A stretch of 64,000 bases of DNA from contig NZ_CP055153.1 of NCBI RefSeq assembly GCF_014075995.1, positions 5,394,001-5,458,000 of the forward strand, in the 5' to 3' direction. The notes beneath the pieces are model-generated. The model was not told the DNA's origin. It ran no database searches and saw only the letters and a list, made by a program, of their open reading frames with translations. This DNA is from Adhaeribacter radiodurans (GTDB lineage Bacteria; Bacteroidota; Bacteroidia; Cytophagales; Hymenobacteraceae). This document shows positions 2,051 to 15,851 of the stretch, piece after piece; the stretch's first letter is position 1, and each line of letters begins with the position of its first letter. The translations under genes were made by a program, and so were the position numbers.

Positions 2051-3436
2051 ATGCAGAAATCCCGCTTAGTTTTACTCATTATTTTAATTTTTACGGCCGT
2101 TCTAAGCCTTTCGCTGCTTAATGAATACGGTTTTATTTCTATTGCCCCGGCGGTTTTAACAACAGTACGGTGGATGGCCATAGCCTTGCTCCTGTATTAT
2201 GCTTACTTAAAACGTTCGCTAACTACCTGGATTTTAGCCAGCATGGTAATAGGAGCCGAGATTGGCTATGATTTTCCGGTTTTTGCTCAGAACCTGAATG
2301 TATTAAGTAAAGTATTCCTGAAATTAGTAAAAACTATTATTGCGCCGCTCTTATTCGGCACTTTGGTAGTAGGTATTGCCGGCCACTCTAATTTAAAACA
2401 AGTAGGCAGCATGGGTATAAAAGCCCTGATCTACTTTGAGATAGTAACTACCTTAGCCTTGTTTATTGGATTAGCGGCCATTAACATCAGCAAAGCCGGC
2501 GAGGGAATTCAACTAAAAGTAAATGCCACCGACGAAATAAAGAAGCCGGAGCCGCAAACTATTTCCGATATAATCCTGCATATTTTCCCGGAAAATATTG
2601 CCCAATCGGTAGCAGAAGGACAGGTTTTGCAAATTGTAGTATTTAGCATTTTATTCGGGATTGCTCTGGCCATGCTGAGCGAGGCTAAGCGCCGTCCTAT
2701 GCTTGAGTTTGCCGAAAGCCTTTCCGAAACTATGTTTAAGTTTACCAACATTATCATGTATTTTGCTCCAATTGCGGTAGGAGCAGCTATTGCTTACACG
2801 GTAGGTCACATGGGTTTTGGAATTTTAGTAAATTTATTTAAGCTGTTAGCTACCTTGTACGTTTCGCTGGTGGCCTTTGTGTTATTGGTATTATTACCGG
2901 TAGCGTACTTCTTCCGGATTCCGGTGAAAAAATTTGTGGCGGCTGTTGCCGAACCCGTTTCTATTGCGTTTGCTACCACTAGTTCGGAAGCCGCTTTACC
3001 GCGCGCCATGGAAGCTATGGAAAGTATTGGCGTACCCCGTAAAATTATTGCCTTTGTGATGCCTATGGGTTATTCATTTAACCTCGATGGCACTACCTTA
3101 TACCTTTCGTTAGCGTCAGTATTTGTGGCTCAAGCCGCGGGTATTGACATGCCCTGGGAACAACAATTGCTAATGGTATTTACTTTAATGCTTACCAGCA
3201 AGGGCGTAGCCGGTGTACCTCGCGCTTCGTTAGTAATTTTATTGGGTACAGCAGCTTCCTTTAATTTACCGATTGAACCCATATTTATTATTTTAGGCAT
3301 TGACGAATTAATGGATATGGCTCGTACGGCGGTAAATGTTACCGGTAACTGTTTAGCCTCTGCCGTAATTGCCCGTTGGGAAGGCGAGTTTAACGATAAT
3401 CCAACTCCCGAGCAGTTAATGGTTGAAGAAGTATAA
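2051..3436 (+). CDS. dicarboxylate/amino acid:cation symporter (DAACS family)
   Basis: This 461-residue inner-membrane protein couples uptake of C4-dicarboxylates or acidic amino acids (glutamate, aspartate) to Na+ or H+. Family marks are the serine-rich hairpin motif TTSSEAALPRAM, the NLDGTTLY substrate/cation segment and the C-terminal MDMARTAVNVTGN block; all are intact. The N-terminus carries two hydrophobic segments before the conserved PLLFGTLVVGI start of the transport domain, and the total length is a little above the usual 400-440. The ATG at 2051 is chosen because the only in-frame upstream ATG (2003) runs directly into TAG. The gene appears monocistronic, with a HEAT-like gene 76 bp downstream. 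The exact substrate cannot be read from the sequence. Confidence 0.93.
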   Translation: MQKSRLVLLIILIFTAVLSLSLLNEYGFISIAPAVLTTVRWMAIALLLYYAYLKRSLTTWILASMVIGAEIGYDFPVFAQNLNVLSKVFLKLVKTIIAPLLFGTLVVGIAGHSNLKQVGSMGIKALIYFEIVTTLALFIGLAAINISKAGEGIQLKVNATDEIKKPEPQTISDIILHIFPENIAQSVAEGQVLQIVVFSILFGIALAMLSEAKRRPMLEFAESLSETMFKFTNIIMYFAPIAVGAAIAYTVGHMGFGILVNLFKLLATLYVSLVAFVLLVLLPVAYFFRIPVKKFVAAVAEPVSIAFATTSSEAALPRAMEAMESIGVPRKIIAFVMPMGYSFNLDGTTLYLSLASVFVAQAAGIDMPWEQQLLMVFTLMLTSKGVAGVPRASLVILLGTAASFNLPIEPIFIILGIDELMDMARTAVNVTGNCLASAVIARWEGEFNDNPTPEQLMVEEV

Positions 3437-4043: not shown

Positions 4044-4386
4044 CAGCTGTATTTCTTGTTTACTGAATTCACACTTGGAAATAGGTTTACAATCACGTTC
4101 TTCTATTTTACTTTTTCCCAGATTAACTACTTTCCAATAAACAGACTACTTGCTATCATTATATTAGAATAGTCATAATTACACTATTCCATTATTGTTA
4201 TTTGCGTTATAGTTTTGCCTCGTCTTAAACAATTAGTCAACCAACTGTAATGCTTATTAGAATAAAACATTTACGCTTATTTTCCTCTTATTATTTTACT
4301 AATTCCCTTCATTTATTTGTTGCTGCTAACCAGCCTTTAGGTGAGTTTTCTTTAAATTCTTCTACAGTTTACTAGTCTTCCTTTAC
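4044..4386. other. intergenic region before the serine hydrolase
   Basis: About 340 bp of AT-rich sequence. No gene, clear hairpin or convincing promoter was recognised. Confidence 0.5.
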
Positions 4387-8562: not shown

Positions 8563-9222
8563 ATGCGCGCTTCTTTCGACCGGGTGAGCTGGTTTTACGA
8601 TCCTTTAGCCAAGCTTATTTTTGGCGGGGCTATCCAAAAGTCGCAGGTTGTTCTTTTACCTTTTATTCCGGCTCAGACATCGGTTTTAATTTTAGGTGGG
8701 GGCACGGGTTGGTTGCTTCGCGACTTAGCCAGGCTGCAATTGCCCTTGAAAATAACGTACTTAGAAATATCTCCCCGCATGTTAACAAAAGCTAAAAAAA
8801 CCTTAGCTGGGATTTCAAATCATTTTTTGCAAGTAGATTTCCGGCAGGGCAATGAGGCAAGTTTAGCAAAGAGCGAAATGTTTGATGTTATTTTTACGCC
8901 CTTTGTTTTAGACTTATATCCTGAGCACTTAGCTGCTGCCATGGTAGAGCATTTACAACAACATTTAAAATTAAACGGAAAATGGCTGGTAGCCGATTTT
9001 TACTTAAATTTTAACCAAGCACACTGGCAGAAATGGTGGCAGCAAAGTTTATTAAAGGCGATGTACGCCTTTTTTAGTAAGTTATGCCAATTAGAAACAA
9101 GTACTTTGCCCAACTTTGATCAGCTGTTTCAAAATACACCTCTTACTTTAGTTAAAACCGAGTACTTTTTTCAAGGGTTTATCCGGTCGCAGGTGTATCA
9201 CCATATTCTTAAACCACTTTAG
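8563..9222 (+). CDS. class I SAM-dependent methyltransferase
   Basis: A 219-residue methyltransferase of the Rossmann type. Motif I is LILGGGTGW (42-50), followed by the acidic end of strand 2 (YLEIS) that binds the SAM ribose, and a DVIFTPFVLDLY motif IV/post-I region. The N-terminus (FDRVSWFYDPLAKLIFGG) resembles UbiE-like enzymes. The substrate is unknown. It converges with the TolC gene at 9273, so it is not part of the peptide-export unit. No hairpin terminator is obvious in the 50-bp gap. Confidence 0.85.
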   Translation: MRASFDRVSWFYDPLAKLIFGGAIQKSQVVLLPFIPAQTSVLILGGGTGWLLRDLARLQLPLKITYLEISPRMLTKAKKTLAGISNHFLQVDFRQGNEASLAKSEMFDVIFTPFVLDLYPEHLAAAMVEHLQQHLKLNGKWLVADFYLNFNQAHWQKWWQQSLLKAMYAFFSKLCQLETSTLPNFDQLFQNTPLTLVKTEYFFQGFIRSQVYHHILKPL

Positions 9223-9272: not shown

Positions 9273-10598
9273 TTAATTGGCTTTTAACAAAAGCAAAAGC
9301 TGATAGCGGAAAAATAATTGAAGTTTAGATTGCAAGTAATTGGCGGCCGAAGCATTTAAAATATCGCGAGCGGTTAATAGCTCTACAGAACTGATTTGCC
9401 CTAATTTATATTTTTCGGCGTATAGATTATAAGATAAGCTGTTTTGTTGCCAGGCGGCCAAAGTAGCTTTGTACTTTTGCTTAGCCGAATTAAATTCATT
9501 AATAAACTGCAGGGTATTATTAATTACGGCATTCTCTGCTTCCTTGGTTGCTAATTGAGCATTCGAAACATTAATCTTTTCTTTTTTTACACTGTTAATA
9601 AACTCCTTTTTGGAAAATATAGGGATATCCAGGCTAATACCAATGTTTTGGCCCAAGTTATCATTTAGCTGCTGATTTATAGGTATTTTGGCTCCATCGG
9701 TTACTTTTTCGTTACTATTATAGTTTGATACCAGATTTCCTCCGGCGGAGAGCGAAGGCAGCAAACTACTTTTTGCAACTTTAACTCCTAACCGGGCTAC
9801 CTGCTCGTTCATTTGAGCCTGTTTAATAGCTGGATGCGTTTGTATAACTGATTCTACAAATTCGTTGGCTACAATAGAAGTGTTGTAAATATCAGCTAGT
9901 AGAGAAGTATCAATAGCAGCAATGGTAAAATAATCTTTATAAGAGATATTTAGAAATTGTTTTAACTCCTGTAAAGCCAACAATGAATCGTTTAATACGG
10001 TAATTAAATCAGCCTTTTCGCTATTTAGGCGGGCATTAAAAGTATAGTGCTCGTATTTAGTAAGCCGGCCGGTTTTTATTTTTTCTTGTATTATAGCCAG
10101 CGTTTTAGTAGTAGTTAAAATATTGTTGCGGGCAATGGTTGCTTGTTCTTTATCCAGTAGCAAACGAGCATAACTCAGCGTAATATTAGATAATACTTCC
10201 AGCTCTGTTCTTTTTTTAGCGTAGCCGGCCGATTTAAGGTTAAACGCACTTTGCTTAATAGTATTTAATTTTTTCAATCCTGAAAACAATTCCAGATTTA
10301 AGTCTAACCCGGTGGAGCCGCCACTAAATCGCTCGAAAACAAAATCATTGGTAACCGGGTCAATATTTTTACCAAAAGAAAAATAATGATTTACCGAATA
10401 GGCCAGCGAAGGCAATAAACTGTATTGAGCCGTTTTTCGGTCCAGCGCATTTGAGTTAATATCGTTTTGAGCTTGTTTAACGGCAATATTATTTTCTAAA
10501 GCAATTTGATAACAATCATCTAAAGTGAATTGCTTTTGGCCACAGCAAGGCCAGGTAACCAGCAGCATGATCGGCAGAAAAACGAACCAGCATTTCAT
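9273..10598 (-). CDS. TolC-family outer-membrane channel of the peptide-export unit
   Basis: This 441-residue protein has a signal peptide (about 1-20, ending near CCGQ) and two outer-membrane efflux repeats rich in long amphipathic helices (about 25-215 and 235-435), typical of TolC-like trimers. It is the last gene of the leftward unit and overlaps the adaptor gene by 4 bp (ATGA type), implying translational coupling. In type I export it would form the outer-membrane exit for the peptide cleaved by the C39 exporter. Length and helix pattern are normal for the family. Confidence 0.9.
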   Translation of the reverse strand: MKCWFVFLPIMLLVTWPCCGQKQFTLDDCYQIALENNIAVKQAQNDINSNALDRKTAQYSLLPSLAYSVNHYFSFGKNIDPVTNDFVFERFSGGSTGLDLNLELFSGLKKLNTIKQSAFNLKSAGYAKKRTELEVLSNITLSYARLLLDKEQATIARNNILTTTKTLAIIQEKIKTGRLTKYEHYTFNARLNSEKADLITVLNDSLLALQELKQFLNISYKDYFTIAAIDTSLLADIYNTSIVANEFVESVIQTHPAIKQAQMNEQVARLGVKVAKSSLLPSLSAGGNLVSNYNSNEKVTDGAKIPINQQLNDNLGQNIGISLDIPIFSKKEFINSVKKEKINVSNAQLATKEAENAVINNTLQFINEFNSAKQKYKATLAAWQQNSLSYNLYAEKYKLGQISSVELLTARDILNASAANYLQSKLQLFFRYQLLLLLKAN

Positions 10599-11815
10599 AC
10601 CTTGTCGAACCGTTTAAAAATCTTTTTAATAAAGAATTTATAGAGAGGCAGCCGCTGTACTACAATTTCGCCGTGAATGGTATAACCAGATTTTAACTTG
10701 TACCGGTCATTTTGCAGGAGTTGCACCAACGCATAAAACTTTTCACTTTCTTTTCTTTCGGCCAGGTACAGTACTTTGCCCCGAATCATGCCATACTCTA
10801 ACCGTTGGTAAGCATCCAGTTTCAAACGGGCTTCCTGCCCGGCTTTTACGTAGGGCATATCTTTTTCCGGCACAATAACTTTTGCGTAATACGACCGGGA
10901 ATCGGGAGCAACGCTAACCAGCAAATCACCCCGGGAAATTAAATTACTAGTTAATTTGGTACTAAATAAAAAATTAACAATGCCGGAATTTGCCGCAATT
11001 ACGTATTGCTTTTGCAGCTCCTTATCTACTTTCCGCAAAGTTTCCCTGGTCTGTAAGAGCTGGCCTTCCAGGTCGTTTTTGGTTTGCAGCAGTTCCTGGG
11101 TATTTTCGTCGAGTTGCAGTTTACTGAGCAATAAATTATTTTGCTCATTCGTAAAATTGTTATAACTCAGGTTTCTTTCGGCGAGTAATTTATTTTGCTC
11201 GTTTTTAAGGCTGGTTAAATTTTCTTTTAGAGATAGGTAAGCATCTTTCGTAGAGTTGTACTCATATTTACTGAGCATATCTTTTTTAAACAAGGCCGCA
11301 TCGCCCAGGTATTTTTCTTGCGCTGAAGCCAGCCGTTCTTTCTGTAAAGCAAATTGCTCTTTTAAAGTTTTTAAATCCGTAATCAACCGATTATTGTCTA
11401 ACTCATATTTTCGGGCATTAATAGTACTGGTTTGTTCTACGGCCGCCTTCTTTTTTTGCACCGCGTCTAAGAGTACCGAAACAGATTGAATTTTCTTCTG
11501 GAGATATTCTATTTCGGTGCTGGTTTTAGCTTGCTGTTCCCCAAAGTCCAAATTATTCATTACCAACAGCGTGTCGCCCGCTTTTACCGGTTGCCCTTCT
11601 TTCACGTAAATTTTTACAATCTGGGCCTCAAAAGGAGCTTTATAATCCGACTGCGGATTAGTAGCTACTATTTCCCCTTCTCTAATGGCTACCGAATCGT
11701 TTATCTGCAGGGCAAAGACCAAGATGATAAGCGTAGCCGCAATCCCCATCAGCAACCGGAAAAACCAAATGGTAAAATTATACTCCTTGATATTGTAGTT
11801 GCTCAATGCTTCCAT
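10595..11815 (-). CDS. HlyD-family membrane-fusion (adaptor) protein
   Basis: This 406-residue protein has one N-terminal transmembrane helix (about 17-37), a lipoyl/barrel-sandwich half motif (YKAPFEAQIVKIYVKEG, about 59-75), a long coiled coil of roughly 200 residues (about 85-285) and a C-terminal beta-barrel region. It bridges the inner-membrane ABC exporter and the TolC channel. Its ATG lies 38 bp inside the 3' end of the exporter gene and its 3' end overlaps the TolC gene by 4 bp, so the three are tightly coupled. The family also serves bacteriocin and RTX export; the neighbourhood here points to a peptide substrate. Confidence 0.92.
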   Translation of the reverse strand: MEALSNYNIKEYNFTIWFFRLLMGIAATLIILVFALQINDSVAIREGEIVATNPQSDYKAPFEAQIVKIYVKEGQPVKAGDTLLVMNNLDFGEQQAKTSTEIEYLQKKIQSVSVLLDAVQKKKAAVEQTSTINARKYELDNNRLITDLKTLKEQFALQKERLASAQEKYLGDAALFKKDMLSKYEYNSTKDAYLSLKENLTSLKNEQNKLLAERNLSYNNFTNEQNNLLLSKLQLDENTQELLQTKNDLEGQLLQTRETLRKVDKELQKQYVIAANSGIVNFLFSTKLTSNLISRGDLLVSVAPDSRSYYAKVIVPEKDMPYVKAGQEARLKLDAYQRLEYGMIRGKVLYLAERKESEKFYALVQLLQNDRYKLKSGYTIHGEIVVQRLPLYKFFIKKIFKRFDKV

Positions 11816-14201
11816 TTTGCATGATTATAGTATTTGAAAATCGTAAACGGTAAAGCGGCTCGTGCGACACAATGATGAAAGAACGATTCGTCTGGTTATT
11901 AATGTAGTTTTCAATTTTCTCCTTCGATTCTACATCAATACCCGACAAGGTTTCATCTAAAATAATCAGCTCCGCTTCGGACAGAAAAGCCCGCATCATG
12001 AGTATTTTTTTTCGCTGACCCGTGGATAAATTGCTGCCTTGTTCGTTTATTACAAAATCAAGACCTTCGGCTTTTTCGGTAATAAACTCGTACAAGCCAA
12101 TTTCTTTGGCTAAGGCTAAAACCCGGGCAGTATTAACCGAATAAGAAAAAGCCATATTAAAGCCCAGAGTGTCGTTAAACACAATATCCTCGTTGCTGAC
12201 CAGCAATATCTTTTTGCGTAAAGAACTTGGGTTATAGAAAGAGAATTTTTCGTTGTTTATCAGTATTTCTCCTTGGTCGGGCGTATATAACAGCGAAAGT
12301 AACTTGCAAAAAGTACTCTTACCTGCCCCGTTGCTTCCTTCCAGCTTAATGATTTCGCCTTTGTTAATAACAATATTTAGATTGGAAAAAACCGGGCGTT
12401 GTGGGATATAATGAAAACCTACATTACGGAAAGTAACTGTTTGAATTTCAACTCCTCTTATTTTACTATGAAAAGTTGCCGCTGTAGTTTGCGCCTCCTT
12501 ACTGCCAAAATCAAAATAACGGGAAAGAATAATTTGGTTTTCCTGAATATCCAAGTTTTGATCCAAAAGGCTACTAACCGAAGAAAACACTTGAGAGGAG
12601 AAAGCGATGAAGGTAATTACCTGTCCCATGGAAATGTTCCGGGTGGTAATGGCATTTTGAGACAGAAACACCAGAATAAGAATACTGGCGATAATCATTA
12701 TAAAATTAATAACCCCCGAATTAATTAAACTCACGTATTTCACCCGGCGCTGAATGCCCAGAATATTTTTAATGCGCGGCCCTAATCGTTGCATAAATAA
12801 ACCTTCCAACCGAAACGATTTAATTACCTGTAAGCCATCGATATTTTCGAAGAGAGAAGAAAACAAATTTGATTTTTCGAGGAACCTTCGGTTTTCGTTT
12901 TCGCGGATATAGGGCGTAATCAGGAAAAACCAAACTATAAAAATAACTAAGATGCCAACAACGATAAACGTAATTTTAAAATCGAGAATAAATAAAACCA
13001 CCAATGAGTATACTGTTACAATAGAATCGATGAGGATACCGGTAAAAAACCGCATAAAAAAAGTTTTAAGCTTCAGGCTATCCTGTATCCGTTCGGTTAA
13101 ATCGCCGCGGCTAAAAGTATGAATGTAGCGGATAGAGTACGTGTTGAGCTTTTCAATAAAAGAAGTCAGAAAAAAGTTATCCAGAATATTGGCCAGGTGA
13201 ATGGAAATAAAACTTTTATATAGCGACAGGATAAGATTGAAAACCTTAAAAAGACCTAATCCTAAAGCAAATAACACCAGCAAACTCAAATTATAATCGG
13301 GCAAAACGTAATCAATCAGAATCTGGCTACTAAAGATGGTAAGCTGCCCCAGCAAGGCGGCAAAAACCGCAGTTGCAATGTAAATACCCCAAAGCTTATG
13401 GTAAGGCTTCAATTCTTTGAAAAGTCGGCGGTACGGATTGATTGGTTTTTCCGAGACAATAGCGCTGGTACTGGGTAACTGAACTTCTGCTGTTTTTTTT
13501 ACCGTTAGAACCACGGGAGCTGTAATGCGCAAAACAGCTTCTCTTAGTTTTAAAGTCCTAAATTGTTTTGGCAGAACACTTAACTCCTGATTAAAGAGCA
13601 GATCTACTAAAAAGTTTTTTTCGGCGGTACTATCAGCAAAACCAAAATTTTCTTTTAAATAAGAAAAATAAGTAAGTTTATTAATTACATCCCCTTCATT
13701 TTGATCTTCTACTTTTTCCGGATTAAGTTGGTAAGCAATAAGTTCTTCCCGGATAATTTGTTGTAAAACTTTACTGTTACTTACATAATCGTAATTAGCC
13801 GTGGCGGTATAAGCGTTATTCATTAACTCCGATAGGGTCCAGAGATAAGACTGACCGATGCCTGGATCCAGAATTTGTAATTTATTTTTACGGAAACCTT
13901 TAATCACCACATAATGCAGCCCTTGGGTATTTTTAACCGGCAAAATGCAGGGAACTAAAGCCTTTAATTTATCGCTGTTAAACTTTAAACTATTTAAATC
14001 CAGCAAATTAAAGTCAGCCTGAAAATGTTGTTTGTCAAAAAAATCTTTGATATCGTGCAGGCTAGAGCCGTTTTCGGTAACGTATATGTTTTCTTCTAAA
14101 TAATTTCGGTTAATATGAATGTTGTGCAGGTTATAGATAATTTTGACTGCACTAATACCACAATCGTTATGCTTTAGTTGTTGTTCAATATCGCTATGCA
14201 T
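11778..14201 (-). CDS. C39-peptidase ABC exporter (PCAT) for double-glycine peptides
   Basis: An 807-residue fusion of protease, membrane domain and ATPase. The C39 cysteine protease (1-125) has oxyanion Q8, catalytic C14, H96 and D112, all intact, and should cut the precursor after Gly-Gly. About 140 residues without an obvious domain (125-262) separate it from the six-helix membrane domain (about 268-545), which is longer than in common PCATs. The ATPase has Walker A GSNGAGKST (622-630), signature LSTGQ (725-729), Walker B LIILDE (745-750) and H-loop H780. The usual Q-loop Gln appears as Asn670 and the signature has Thr for Gly. It starts 9 bp after the kinase gene and overlaps the HlyD gene by 38 bp. 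Confidence 0.93.
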   Translation of the reverse strand: MHSDIEQQLKHNDCGISAVKIIYNLHNIHINRNYLEENIYVTENGSSLHDIKDFFDKQHFQADFNLLDLNSLKFNSDKLKALVPCILPVKNTQGLHYVVIKGFRKNKLQILDPGIGQSYLWTLSELMNNAYTATANYDYVSNSKVLQQIIREELIAYQLNPEKVEDQNEGDVINKLTYFSYLKENFGFADSTAEKNFLVDLLFNQELSVLPKQFRTLKLREAVLRITAPVVLTVKKTAEVQLPSTSAIVSEKPINPYRRLFKELKPYHKLWGIYIATAVFAALLGQLTIFSSQILIDYVLPDYNLSLLVLFALGLGLFKVFNLILSLYKSFISIHLANILDNFFLTSFIEKLNTYSIRYIHTFSRGDLTERIQDSLKLKTFFMRFFTGILIDSIVTVYSLVVLFILDFKITFIVVGILVIFIVWFFLITPYIRENENRRFLEKSNLFSSLFENIDGLQVIKSFRLEGLFMQRLGPRIKNILGIQRRVKYVSLINSGVINFIMIIASILILVFLSQNAITTRNISMGQVITFIAFSSQVFSSVSSLLDQNLDIQENQIILSRYFDFGSKEAQTTAATFHSKIRGVEIQTVTFRNVGFHYIPQRPVFSNLNIVINKGEIIKLEGSNGAGKSTFCKLLSLLYTPDQGEILINNEKFSFYNPSSLRKKILLVSNEDIVFNDTLGFNMAFSYSVNTARVLALAKEIGLYEFITEKAEGLDFVINEQGSNLSTGQRKKILMMRAFLSEAELIILDETLSGIDVESKEKIENYINNQTNRSFIIVSHEPLYRLRFSNTIIMQNGSIEQLQYQGV

Positions 14202-14210
14202 AAGAAAGAA

Positions 14211-15425
14211 TTAAAAGATTAATGCTTCATTTTCCAAGGCTACTTTTTTAAATTCTTTTAACAGGGAAGTAGCAGTTGCGTACCGCCTTGAAGGCTTCTT
14301 TTGCAAGCAATTTTCTATAATTTGAATTATCTGTTCGGATACCCGAAAATTAAAGATGGAAAGAGTAGGATACATGACCTCCTTTCTTTTGATATTCTCC
14401 GAAAATTCTTCCCATATAAAGCCGATAAATGGTTCTTTCTGGTAAAAAATGAAATATAATATTAGACCAATTTGGTATACATCAGAATAGTAATCAGGCT
14501 CTTTAGAAAATTTATGCAAGCTGGTAGTATTGATTCGTTCGGGAGGCATATAATAAAGTACCCCTCCAAATTTTAGTACTTCATCCGCCTCAATTGTTAC
14601 CTCAAATGAAAATCCCAAATCAATAATCTTAATGCTTTTATCATCGTTTACCATTATGTTAGAGGGGTGAATATCGCCATGAATCAAATGGCTTTCATGT
14701 AGCATAGAAAATGCTTGCAAGATGTTATGAATAATAGTAAGACAATCGTGCAGAGTTAAAGTATCAACCTGCTTCAAAAAACGAGATAATGGTTTACCTT
14801 TAATATATTCCAATAAAATATACGCGTTCTGATCACTATCTTTTCGAAAAGTATAGGCTTGGCAGATAGAAGGTATATGTTTAATTTTTTGGAGCATTTG
14901 ATATTCATGTTCCAGGTCCAGAAGTTCTTCTTTATATTTAGTTTTATCAGATATTTTTTTCTGGTTTAATAATTTTACAACATATTTGGTGGCAGTAACT
15001 TTATTTTGGACCAGGTATATATCTACATAATCCTTGTTAGAAATAATTTCCAGAACTAGTAAATTATCAAAGCAATCTCCTTCTTTATAAAGCGGTTGTT
15101 TTTCTTTTTTTGGTTCAACCCAATTCTCCGGAACCACAATTTTCCTTCGGCACAAAAACTTAAAAAAGGACGCACATTTTTGTTCTATTTTCTTTTCTTC
15201 GGTTTGTACATCCAAAGCTACTTCTTGTAAGACTTCGGCTTGTGTTTTAGGATTAGAAAATTTGTCTATAAAATATTTAACAGTTTCATTAATTAAAAAC
15301 TCCTTCCCTTTGTTTTGATCCAACAAAATATAATGTCCATGCAGATTCTCTGACAGAGGATTTATCTCAGGAAAATCAGAAGGATTGAGGATACTTATAT
15401 TGTGGGATATCCGGTACTTCACCAT
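14211..15425 (-). CDS. Ser/Thr protein-kinase-like protein with PqqD-like N-terminus
   Basis: A 404-residue soluble protein of two parts. Residues 1-100 look like a PqqD/RRE-type winged-helix fold (NPSDFPEINPLSENLHGHYILLD, then a helical stretch with KCASFFKFLCRRKIV), the domain class that binds RiPP leader peptides. Residues 115-395 form a Hanks-type kinase: Lys in YVVK151, Glu172/174 in the C-helix, hinge LLEYIKGKPL, HGD251 with N256, DLG (D269) and PPE296. The catalytic residues are present, but the glycine-rich loop is degenerate. No lyase or cyclase domain is attached, unlike class III/IV lanthipeptide synthetases. Lying between the precursor and exporter genes, it is the best candidate for modifying the Ser-rich core. 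The gene looks more AT-rich than its flanks. Confidence 0.82.
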   Translation of the reverse strand: MVKYRISHNISILNPSDFPEINPLSENLHGHYILLDQNKGKEFLINETVKYFIDKFSNPKTQAEVLQEVALDVQTEEKKIEQKCASFFKFLCRRKIVVPENWVEPKKEKQPLYKEGDCFDNLLVLEIISNKDYVDIYLVQNKVTATKYVVKLLNQKKISDKTKYKEELLDLEHEYQMLQKIKHIPSICQAYTFRKDSDQNAYILLEYIKGKPLSRFLKQVDTLTLHDCLTIIHNILQAFSMLHESHLIHGDIHPSNIMVNDDKSIKIIDLGFSFEVTIEADEVLKFGGVLYYMPPERINTTSLHKFSKEPDYYSDVYQIGLILYFIFYQKEPFIGFIWEEFSENIKRKEVMYPTLSIFNFRVSEQIIQIIENCLQKKPSRRYATATSLLKEFKKVALENEALIF

Positions 15426-15445
15426 TCTCGATTATTTTAAAAGGA

Positions 15446-15478
15446 ATAAGGAGTGATGGAAATTACCCCACTCCTTAT
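15446..15478 (-). promoter_or_regulatory. intercistronic hairpin between precursor and kinase genes
   Basis: ATAAGGAGTG (15446-15455) and CACTCCTTAT (15469-15478) form a perfect 10-bp stem with a 13-nt loop, in the 100-bp gap after the precursor stop codon. Read on the minus strand, only a short CCTTTT stretch follows, so it looks like a leaky terminator or an RNA-stabilising element that would make the peptide message more abundant than the kinase/export message. The strand-matched GGAGTG/AAGGAGTG also lies about 40 nt before the kinase ATG. Confidence 0.5.
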
Positions 15479-15525
15479 AGTTTAGCAGAATTTACTTAAG
15501 CATACTTTATAGTCAGCCTTGCTGA

Positions 15526-15723
15526 TTAGTACTTGCACTTCTTATTTTTTCTTCTTTTTTTGCCATGGTGGCTATGACTTCTACTCTTGCTCTTGCTACA
15601 GCTTCTGCTATGGCTTTTGCTATAACTGCAGCTAGGTGGAGTGTAGCAACCATATGTACCACCAACAATCTCATTTAGAGATTCGCCTTTTAGGTCAGTT
15701 AAGATTTTTTCTAAAGTGATCAT
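15526..15723 (-). CDS. double-glycine precursor peptide with alternating-serine core
   Basis: A 65-residue precursor. The leader (1-22, MITLEKILTDLKG...LNEIVGG) has the hydrophobic spacing and Gly-Gly end recognised by C39 exporters. The predicted 43-residue core starts with TYGCYTPP and then has Ser at every odd position from 31 to 51, alternating with C, Y, K, H, R, C, K, K, R, H and H, followed by HHG and a KKRRKNKK-type basic tail. Four Cys (26, 32, 42, 63) could form two disulfides or thioether bridges. All eleven repeat serines use AGC or AGT, while the leader Ser uses TCT, so the repeat is a hexanucleotide array. The gene heads the exporter unit. No homologue is recognised; the function (antimicrobial, adhesive, mineral- or nucleic-acid-binding) is open. 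Confidence 0.8.
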   Translation of the reverse strand: MITLEKILTDLKGESLNEIVGGTYGCYTPPSCSYSKSHSRSCSKSKSRSHSHHGKKRRKNKKCKY

Positions 15724-15851
15724 GACTTAAAAAATTAAAAAATGAATAAATAGGCTACTCTGTTGCTAGGGTTTTCGCCTTCTCCCTATCAGTCCGCGGT
15801 ACTGAATATCTTAAAAACCAATGAATGGTTTATTGATTTAGTATAATTTAG

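Follow-up and report, generated by a model that had tools for sequence, protein, structure and literature searches.

The 64,000-nucleotide stretch of Adhaeribacter radiodurans DNA analysed here (the window; contig NZ_CP055153.1) contains, at 9273-15723 on the minus strand, five leftward open reading frames that encode a precursor peptide, a protein kinase, a C39 ABC exporter, an HlyD adaptor and a TolC channel. Our analysis indicates that this unit probably makes and exports a linear peptide that is phosphorylated at many sites. A preliminary description of this DNA had proposed a peptide biosynthesis and export unit in which a kinase is the only visible modifying enzyme, and had suggested a stably phosphorylated peptide as its product. 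The observation is real and stronger than was stated, and the interpretation is supported: homologues of the kinase are linked to double-glycine-type precursors throughout the family, and a lyase or cyclase was not found among the recurrent neighbours tested.

The layout of the unit was as first described, with gaps of 100 and 9 bp followed by overlaps of 38 and 4 bp according to the reading frame coordinates, as was the division of the precursor into a 22-residue double-glycine leader and a 43-residue core. Pfam searches likewise confirmed the identities assigned to exporter (Peptidase_C39 plus ABC), adaptor (HlyD_3), channel (OEP) and kinase (Pkinase), and the Cys of the DCG motif is present in the exporter. 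The window genome, 6.9 Mb in two contigs, carries a single copy of the unit.

Genome contigs were scanned with an alignment of six kinases, which yielded 41 loci, and the family was defined by score and context (L014-L032). With a 19-sequence profile, family members scored above 300 bits and the next matches at most 177 bits. A family kinase with readable upstream DNA was found at 26 distinct Bacteroidota loci in several taxonomic families: the window, a second genome of the genus (G014), five Hymenobacter, two Segetibacter, Ilyomonas, five further Chitinophagales bins, one Saprospiraceae bin, six members of the Cyclobacterium-Lunatibacter family and four Spirosoma. At all 26 loci a precursor with a leader ending in GG, AG or a similar motif lies upstream of the kinase gene, and a C39-ABC gene adjoins the pair. 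The exporter gene is on the same strand at 22 loci; at the four Spirosoma loci it is divergent and the exporter is distantly related. This recurrence in distant genera argues that the five-gene unit did not arise by chance. At one of the 26 loci (L031) kinase and exporter are split over several frames, and it was left out of the kinase alignment. A further family kinase (L020) lies on a 3.6-kb contig that begins just upstream of it and is probably misbinned; it was included in the kinase alignment and not in the 26 loci.

The 26 precursors show the leader and core organization of ribosomally synthesized and post-translationally modified peptides (RiPPs), with leaders that resemble one another and cores that are hypervariable. 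Ser and Thr together make up 37% of the core (range 14-73) versus 11% of the leader. As controls we used 39 regions around C39 genes from the same order, 20 of which contained no peptide by our rule, leaving 19 loci with 40 peptides, at which a family kinase was not found. The Ser plus Thr content of these kinase-less C39 peptides was 14% (Mann-Whitney p 1.7e-6 against the family cores; a rule selected the control peptides, whereas position and inspection by eye also served to pick the family precursors), and hydrophobic residues accounted for 32% of them versus 8% of the family cores. Three control peptides are doubtful (L177 and the first of L195 and of L201).

The acceptor residues are arranged in several kinds of repeat. 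Runs of Ser-Lys/Arg are found in the cores of the window, three Hymenobacter and Spirosoma, runs of Thr-Lys/Arg in those of G014, Ilyomonas and relatives, and runs of Ser-Glu/Asp in those of Cyclobacterium and relatives. Regular Ser/Thr spacing with a lag of 1 to 4 reached p<0.01 (uncorrected) in 14 of the 24 cores tested; the lag is 2 for the cores of the window, Ilyomonas and Saprospiraceae, and 3 for two Spirosoma cores, L026 and L129. None of 2000 shuffles matched the lag-2 spacing of the window core. Among the 20 cores with at least five Ser residues, 15 use AGY as well as TCN codons, and this favours selection acting on the amino acid over slippage of a DNA repeat; the others use one type, AGY in the window and L018 and TCN in three Spirosoma. 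Between the window genome (G000) and G014, the exporters are 94% identical, the leaders 82%, the kinases 62% and the cores 29% (28 aligned positions), the core being Ser-rich in the window and Thr-rich in G014.

The kinase protein consists of two parts. Because a fold search with the whole model listed matches to the kinase part only, the N-terminus was folded separately, and its predicted fold matched TbiB1, lasso B1 proteins and PqqD. We therefore predict that it is a RiPP recognition element (RRE), which would place a leader-binding element, a hallmark of RiPP pathways, in the modifying enzyme at the level of predicted fold. The Pfam PqqD score of the window protein lies below the cut-off (15.4 vs 23.4 bits); of 19 family kinases, 8 match PqqD at E≤1, the best of them at 4.4e-5. 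The remainder of the protein is a PknB-like Ser/Thr kinase by fold search. The catalytic Lys, the helix-C Glu, the Asp of HGD and the Asp of DFG are kept in all 26 aligned kinases (25 of the 26 loci plus L020). The 404-residue protein contains only the RRE and the kinase; a fused lyase or cyclase domain of the kind that marks class III and IV lanthipeptide synthetases is absent. An antiphage defence kinase was considered and rejected, the PADLOC matches (mad6 and PD-T4-6) spanning the kinase domain only.

We propose that the RRE binds the conserved leader, as its fold suggests, and that the fused kinase would then phosphorylate several Ser and Thr residues of the core in the cytoplasm, before export. 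From the established functions of their families, the C39 domain would cleave after the GG-type motif and the product would leave through HlyD and TolC. The leader would thus serve as a recognition handle, and the core would be free to vary while remaining rich in Ser and Thr. Since the variable core is kept Ser/Thr-rich, the product would not be a cross-linked bacteriocin but a polyampholyte or polyanion rich in phosphate, and a role at the surface, in a matrix or in metal binding seems more likely than that of a lanthionine antibiotic. The PP2C-type phosphatase gene seen at six of the 26 loci, all in one family, also speaks for this reading.

The residue that follows DFG (DFG+1) was compared with the composition of the core. 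In other kinases Phe at this position favours Ser, and Leu favours Ser or confers no preference (PMC3898841). Cores with a majority of Thr occur with none of 10 Phe or Met kinases and with 5 of 15 Leu kinases (p 0.06, uncorrected for descent), and the shift from a Ser core in the window to a Thr core in G014 is accompanied by a change from Phe to Leu.

Several observations weigh against the proposed multisite phosphorylation. The Leu that accompanies Thr-rich cores is not Thr-selective in other kinases in that account (PMC3898841), and the match of DFG+1 with Ser or Thr cores is only suggestive. Five kinases have DFD instead of DFG, and the catalytic-loop Asn is absent from the L020 kinase. 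No spacing signal at p<0.01 was seen in 10 of the 24 cores, for example L011 and L018; the L011 core (Hymenobacter latericoloratus) is short and non-repetitive, with 7 Ser among 24 residues, and the four Spirosoma cores contain only 14-27% Ser plus Thr. Because the core statistics include related loci, which are not independent, the p-values are optimistic. As the Ser codons of the window core are all AGY, slippage is possible for this core. One to six Cys residues occur in 14 of the 26 cores, and disulfides or other chemistry are possible there. Rapid divergence is not unique to the kinase, in that the neighbouring methyltransferase is 61% identical between G000 and G014. A stably phosphorylated product is an inference here.

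An alternative is a lanthipeptide-like route, in which phosphate would be an intermediate and elimination would give dehydroamino acids or thioethers, catalysed either in the kinase active site, as happens in LanM, or by a lyase whose gene lies elsewhere. Lanthipeptide kinases of classes III-V do act through a phosphorylated intermediate (PMC10604976, PMC9486802), 14 of the 26 cores contain Cys, and kinase-LanC fusions that align over the whole profile are among the nearest matches outside the family. However, as the preliminary description had claimed, a lyase or cyclase was found neither among the recurrent neighbours tested by Pfam nor in nine window proteins, the same searches finding no HopA1-like lyase (whole genomes were not searched for lyases). 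LanC scored above the cut-off in only 2 of the 24 host genomes searched, the window genome not being one of them, and 12 of the 26 cores lack Cys, although the window core has four. Because of these 12 cores and the 22 genomes without LanC, lanthionines are unlikely as the general product, and we consider the route as a whole unlikely. Membership of the family in the lanthipeptides was rejected on the same grounds, a lyase or cyclase not having been found and 12 cores being free of Cys. Lanthipeptide kinases were not among the matches listed in the fold search, which does not by itself argue against a relation.

A less probable explanation is self-protection: a cationic antimicrobial peptide would be kept neutralized by phosphorylation while still in the cell, and phosphatases would activate it outside. 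The window core is strongly basic (17 Lys, Arg or His among 43 residues), as are many others, and phosphatase genes lie near some loci: a PP2C-type gene follows the operon at six of the 26, all in the Cyclobacterium-Lunatibacter family (the member tested, L026, matched Pfam at 8.9e-14 and was Stp1-like below the cut-off), and metallophosphoesterase genes lie between the kinase and C39 genes in L020 and upstream of the precursor in L009. In contrast, the six Cyclobacterium-group cores are acidic and contain no Lys, Arg or His, and by eye the start of the PP2C sequence shows no obvious signal peptide. We give least credence to the idea that the kinase regulates the exporter or gene expression and that the peptide is an unmodified bacteriocin or pheromone; the domain resembles signalling kinases such as PknB, and PP2C phosphatases can partner regulatory kinases, but a fused RRE and cores enriched in kinase acceptor residues are unexpected for a plain regulator, and the kinase diverges faster than the exporter, although so does the unrelated gene beside the unit.

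Phosphorylated linear RiPPs are already in print as LPP (Popov et al. 2026; PMC13381572), which we regard as the nearest pathway parallel. The two are alike in that a linear precursor is phosphorylated in an RRE-dependent manner and loses its leader, which here would follow from the genes, and in that the cluster has an exporter gene. As described in that paper, however, the LPP system is from Bacillota; its HprK-like kinase works with a discrete RRE and places several phosphates on one Ser (S3), and it has an SpI-like leader peptidase, an MsbA-like exporter and an NTP transferase (PMC13381572), whereas in the Bacteroidota units the predicted RRE is fused to a kinase of the Pkinase fold, many Ser and Thr residues lie in repeats, and export would use C39, HlyD and TolC. 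The preliminary description knew of no system of this composition. Our searches of the open-licence literature likewise found no account in which a C39 exporter accompanies a PknB-like kinase that carries a fused RRE, LPP being closest, but phosphorylated linear RiPPs as such are known (PMC13381572); what we did not find described is the architecture and the type of peptide.

Other systems share parts of the proposed pathway. In paeninodin-type lasso peptides a RiPP kinase also phosphorylates before leader removal, but the target is the C-terminal Ser of a lasso peptide, a macrolactam cyclase is present and the kinase has a His-Lys-Asp-Asp motif set (PMC9266682). The synthetases of class III, IV and V lanthipeptides likewise use a leader-guided kinase on precursor Ser and Thr (PMC10604976, PMC9486802). 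They have lyase and cyclase activities, and classes II-V have no identifiable RRE (PMC10604976), in contrast to the units described here, which would have an RRE. The earlier statement that the kinase of such synthetases is fused to lyase and cyclase is not general, the class V kinase and lyase being separate (PMC9486802). The nearest functional parallel would be CotH, a dedicated kinase that polyphosphorylates Ser/Lys/Arg-rich repeats of CotB and CotG, 30 phosphoserines having been identified in the repeats of CotB (PMC7821199). CotB and CotG are spore-coat proteins, unlike the exported peptides proposed here. CotH belongs to another kinase family, and we know of no leader, RRE or ABC export in that system. 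In its leader type, C39-ABC exporter, HlyD and TolC, the unit agrees with double-glycine secretion systems, the control loci differing in their cores and in the lack of a family kinase.

With the profile as query, a family kinase was found in 6 of 390 genomes drawn from the order, 1 of 395 from the class, 6 of 196 and 1 of 150 from two of the families within that order, 7 of 394 from the family of Segetibacter koreensis (with which the genome of L029 groups) and 0 of 22 from another order; with the window kinase as sole query, 7 of 200 genomes of its own family matched. The draws overlap. Twelve genomes searched whole gave one match each, and one Spirosoma bin outside these has two loci. When the exporter was used as query at E≤1e-90, with six candidates scored per genome, 2 of 148 genomes of the order matched, and both also have the kinase. 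Among 366 plasmid records, every match to the kinase was below 60% identity. Trees of kinase and exporter from 21 loci shared the Hymenobacter, Spirosoma, Cyclobacterium-Lunatibacter, Ilyomonas-type and window-G014 groups, whereas the Saprospiraceae and L017 rows, on long branches, were placed differently.

An RNA element precedes the precursor gene of the window. Against Rfam RF02914 (DUF805b) it scored 17.5 bits, below the gathering threshold of 35.6 for membership; it lies within a stretch of at least 61 bases that G014 shares unchanged. By pattern and eye the element precedes 15 of the 26 precursors, and a model search (E≤0.05) did not find it before the Hymenobacter, Spirosoma, L017 and L019 precursors. 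In a 13-sequence alignment, in which the stem was misplaced in four longer-loop sequences (L022, L027, L030 and L031), 77% of stem cells and 100% of pseudoknot cells were paired. In an 18-sequence alignment, which excluded those four and included four elements of one locus (L181), 100% of pseudoknot cells were paired, 13 two-sided changes were counted, and covariation scored 0.634 vs 0.220 in shuffles. Two-sided changes affected 5 pairs, no more than in shuffles (mean 4.3), whereas the other four measures exceeded the shuffles, three of them in 500 of 500 and the pair-type count in 487.

Elements of this type also occur without the kinase. The RNA model (R1), run over 55 sources, matched C39 or LanC loci that lack it, and nine of ten matches at E≤0.05 outside the window have a reading frame with a GG leader within 60 nt downstream, a count that holds for loci chosen beforehand for their C39 or LanC genes and that includes one match from the training set (L138). 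The L138 element (3084-3123) is a full Rfam DUF805b match at 46.2 bits. Kinase-less double-glycine peptide genes preceded by a DUF805b-type element were seen at L138, L202, L181, L197, L192, L207 and L189. Of these, L192 (element at 4160-4196; G000:C2:2182000-2196000) is a second C39 locus of the window genome, with a GG-type precursor, and a family kinase was not found in that stretch. DUF805b-type pseudoknot RNA may be a common leader RNA for double-glycine peptides in Bacteroidota. No paper naming DUF805b RNA turned up in the open-licence literature.

Features of the unit in the window (all on the minus strand)
Feature	Position	Strand	Remarks
RNA leader element, stem-loop with 3-bp pseudoknot	15751..15791	-	27 nt before the precursor start; related to Rfam DUF805b
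Precursor reading frame	15526-15723	-	65 residues; no family above cut-off
Precursor leader, 22 residues with GG end	15658..15723	-	From reading frame; similar leaders in relatives
Precursor core, 43 residues plus stop	15526..15657	-	11 Ser, 2 Thr, 4 Cys; Ser run at alternate residues
Kinase reading frame	14211-15425	-	404 residues; Pfam Pkinase
RRE-like domain, kinase protein residues 1-106	15108..15425	-	Predicted fold
Ser/Thr protein kinase domain, residues 117-400	14226..15077	-	Key catalytic residues present, among them Lys151 and Asp251
C39 peptidase-containing ABC exporter	11778..14201	-	807 residues; Pfam Peptidase_C39 9.5e-19, ABC_membrane, ABC_tran
HlyD-family periplasmic adaptor	10595..11815	-	406 residues; Pfam HlyD_3 3.6e-14
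TolC-family outer-membrane channel	9273..10598	-	441 residues; Pfam OEP 1.6e-43

Within the flanks examined, the most widespread neighbour beyond the five genes occurs at 7 of the 26 loci. A lipoprotein-like protein is encoded at seven loci and a TPR-CHAT protein (one tested by Pfam) at six, in two groups; both genes lie beside the operon at L022, L027, L030, L031, L129 and L130, and the Chitinophagaceae loci among those with such genes also have sigma-factor-like genes by eye. In the window, the convergent methyltransferase gene (8563-9222, 61% identity) and the kinase gene (14211-15425, 62%) are far more diverged than the exporter (94%) in the comparison with L008, between two genomes of one genus. 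A scan for promoter-like sites (32 vs 28.1 in shuffles) and terminator-like sites (8 vs 6.5) led nowhere. Outside the family, kinase-LanC fusions that likewise match the RRE-kinase profile at their N-terminus were seen at L062 (328-3881), L063, L076, L080, L081 and L082, the LanC part being identified by Pfam in L062 and by motif in the other five; beside the L062 fusion lies a gene for a 385-residue protein with no Pfam or NCBIfam match. These fusions are possibly an undescribed arrangement of lanthipeptide synthetase.

We tentatively suggest that the family could represent a new class of RiPP, whose defining enzyme would be a eukaryotic-like Ser/Thr kinase with a fused RRE. From hypervariable repeats of Ser and Thr it would produce peptides dense in phosphate that are secreted to serve in surface layers, in adhesion or in the binding of minerals or metals. 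Silaffins, caseins or spore-coat phosphoproteins would then be the analogues of these bacterial peptides. The RNA element would link DUF805b, an orphan cis-regulatory RNA, to double-glycine peptide genes. If our interpretation of the unit is correct, RiPP kinase chemistry can end in multisite phosphorylation instead of dehydration, the unit would offer a small system for phosphate-rich peptides, and the question of how an RRE steers the phosphorylation of ever-changing cores would become testable.

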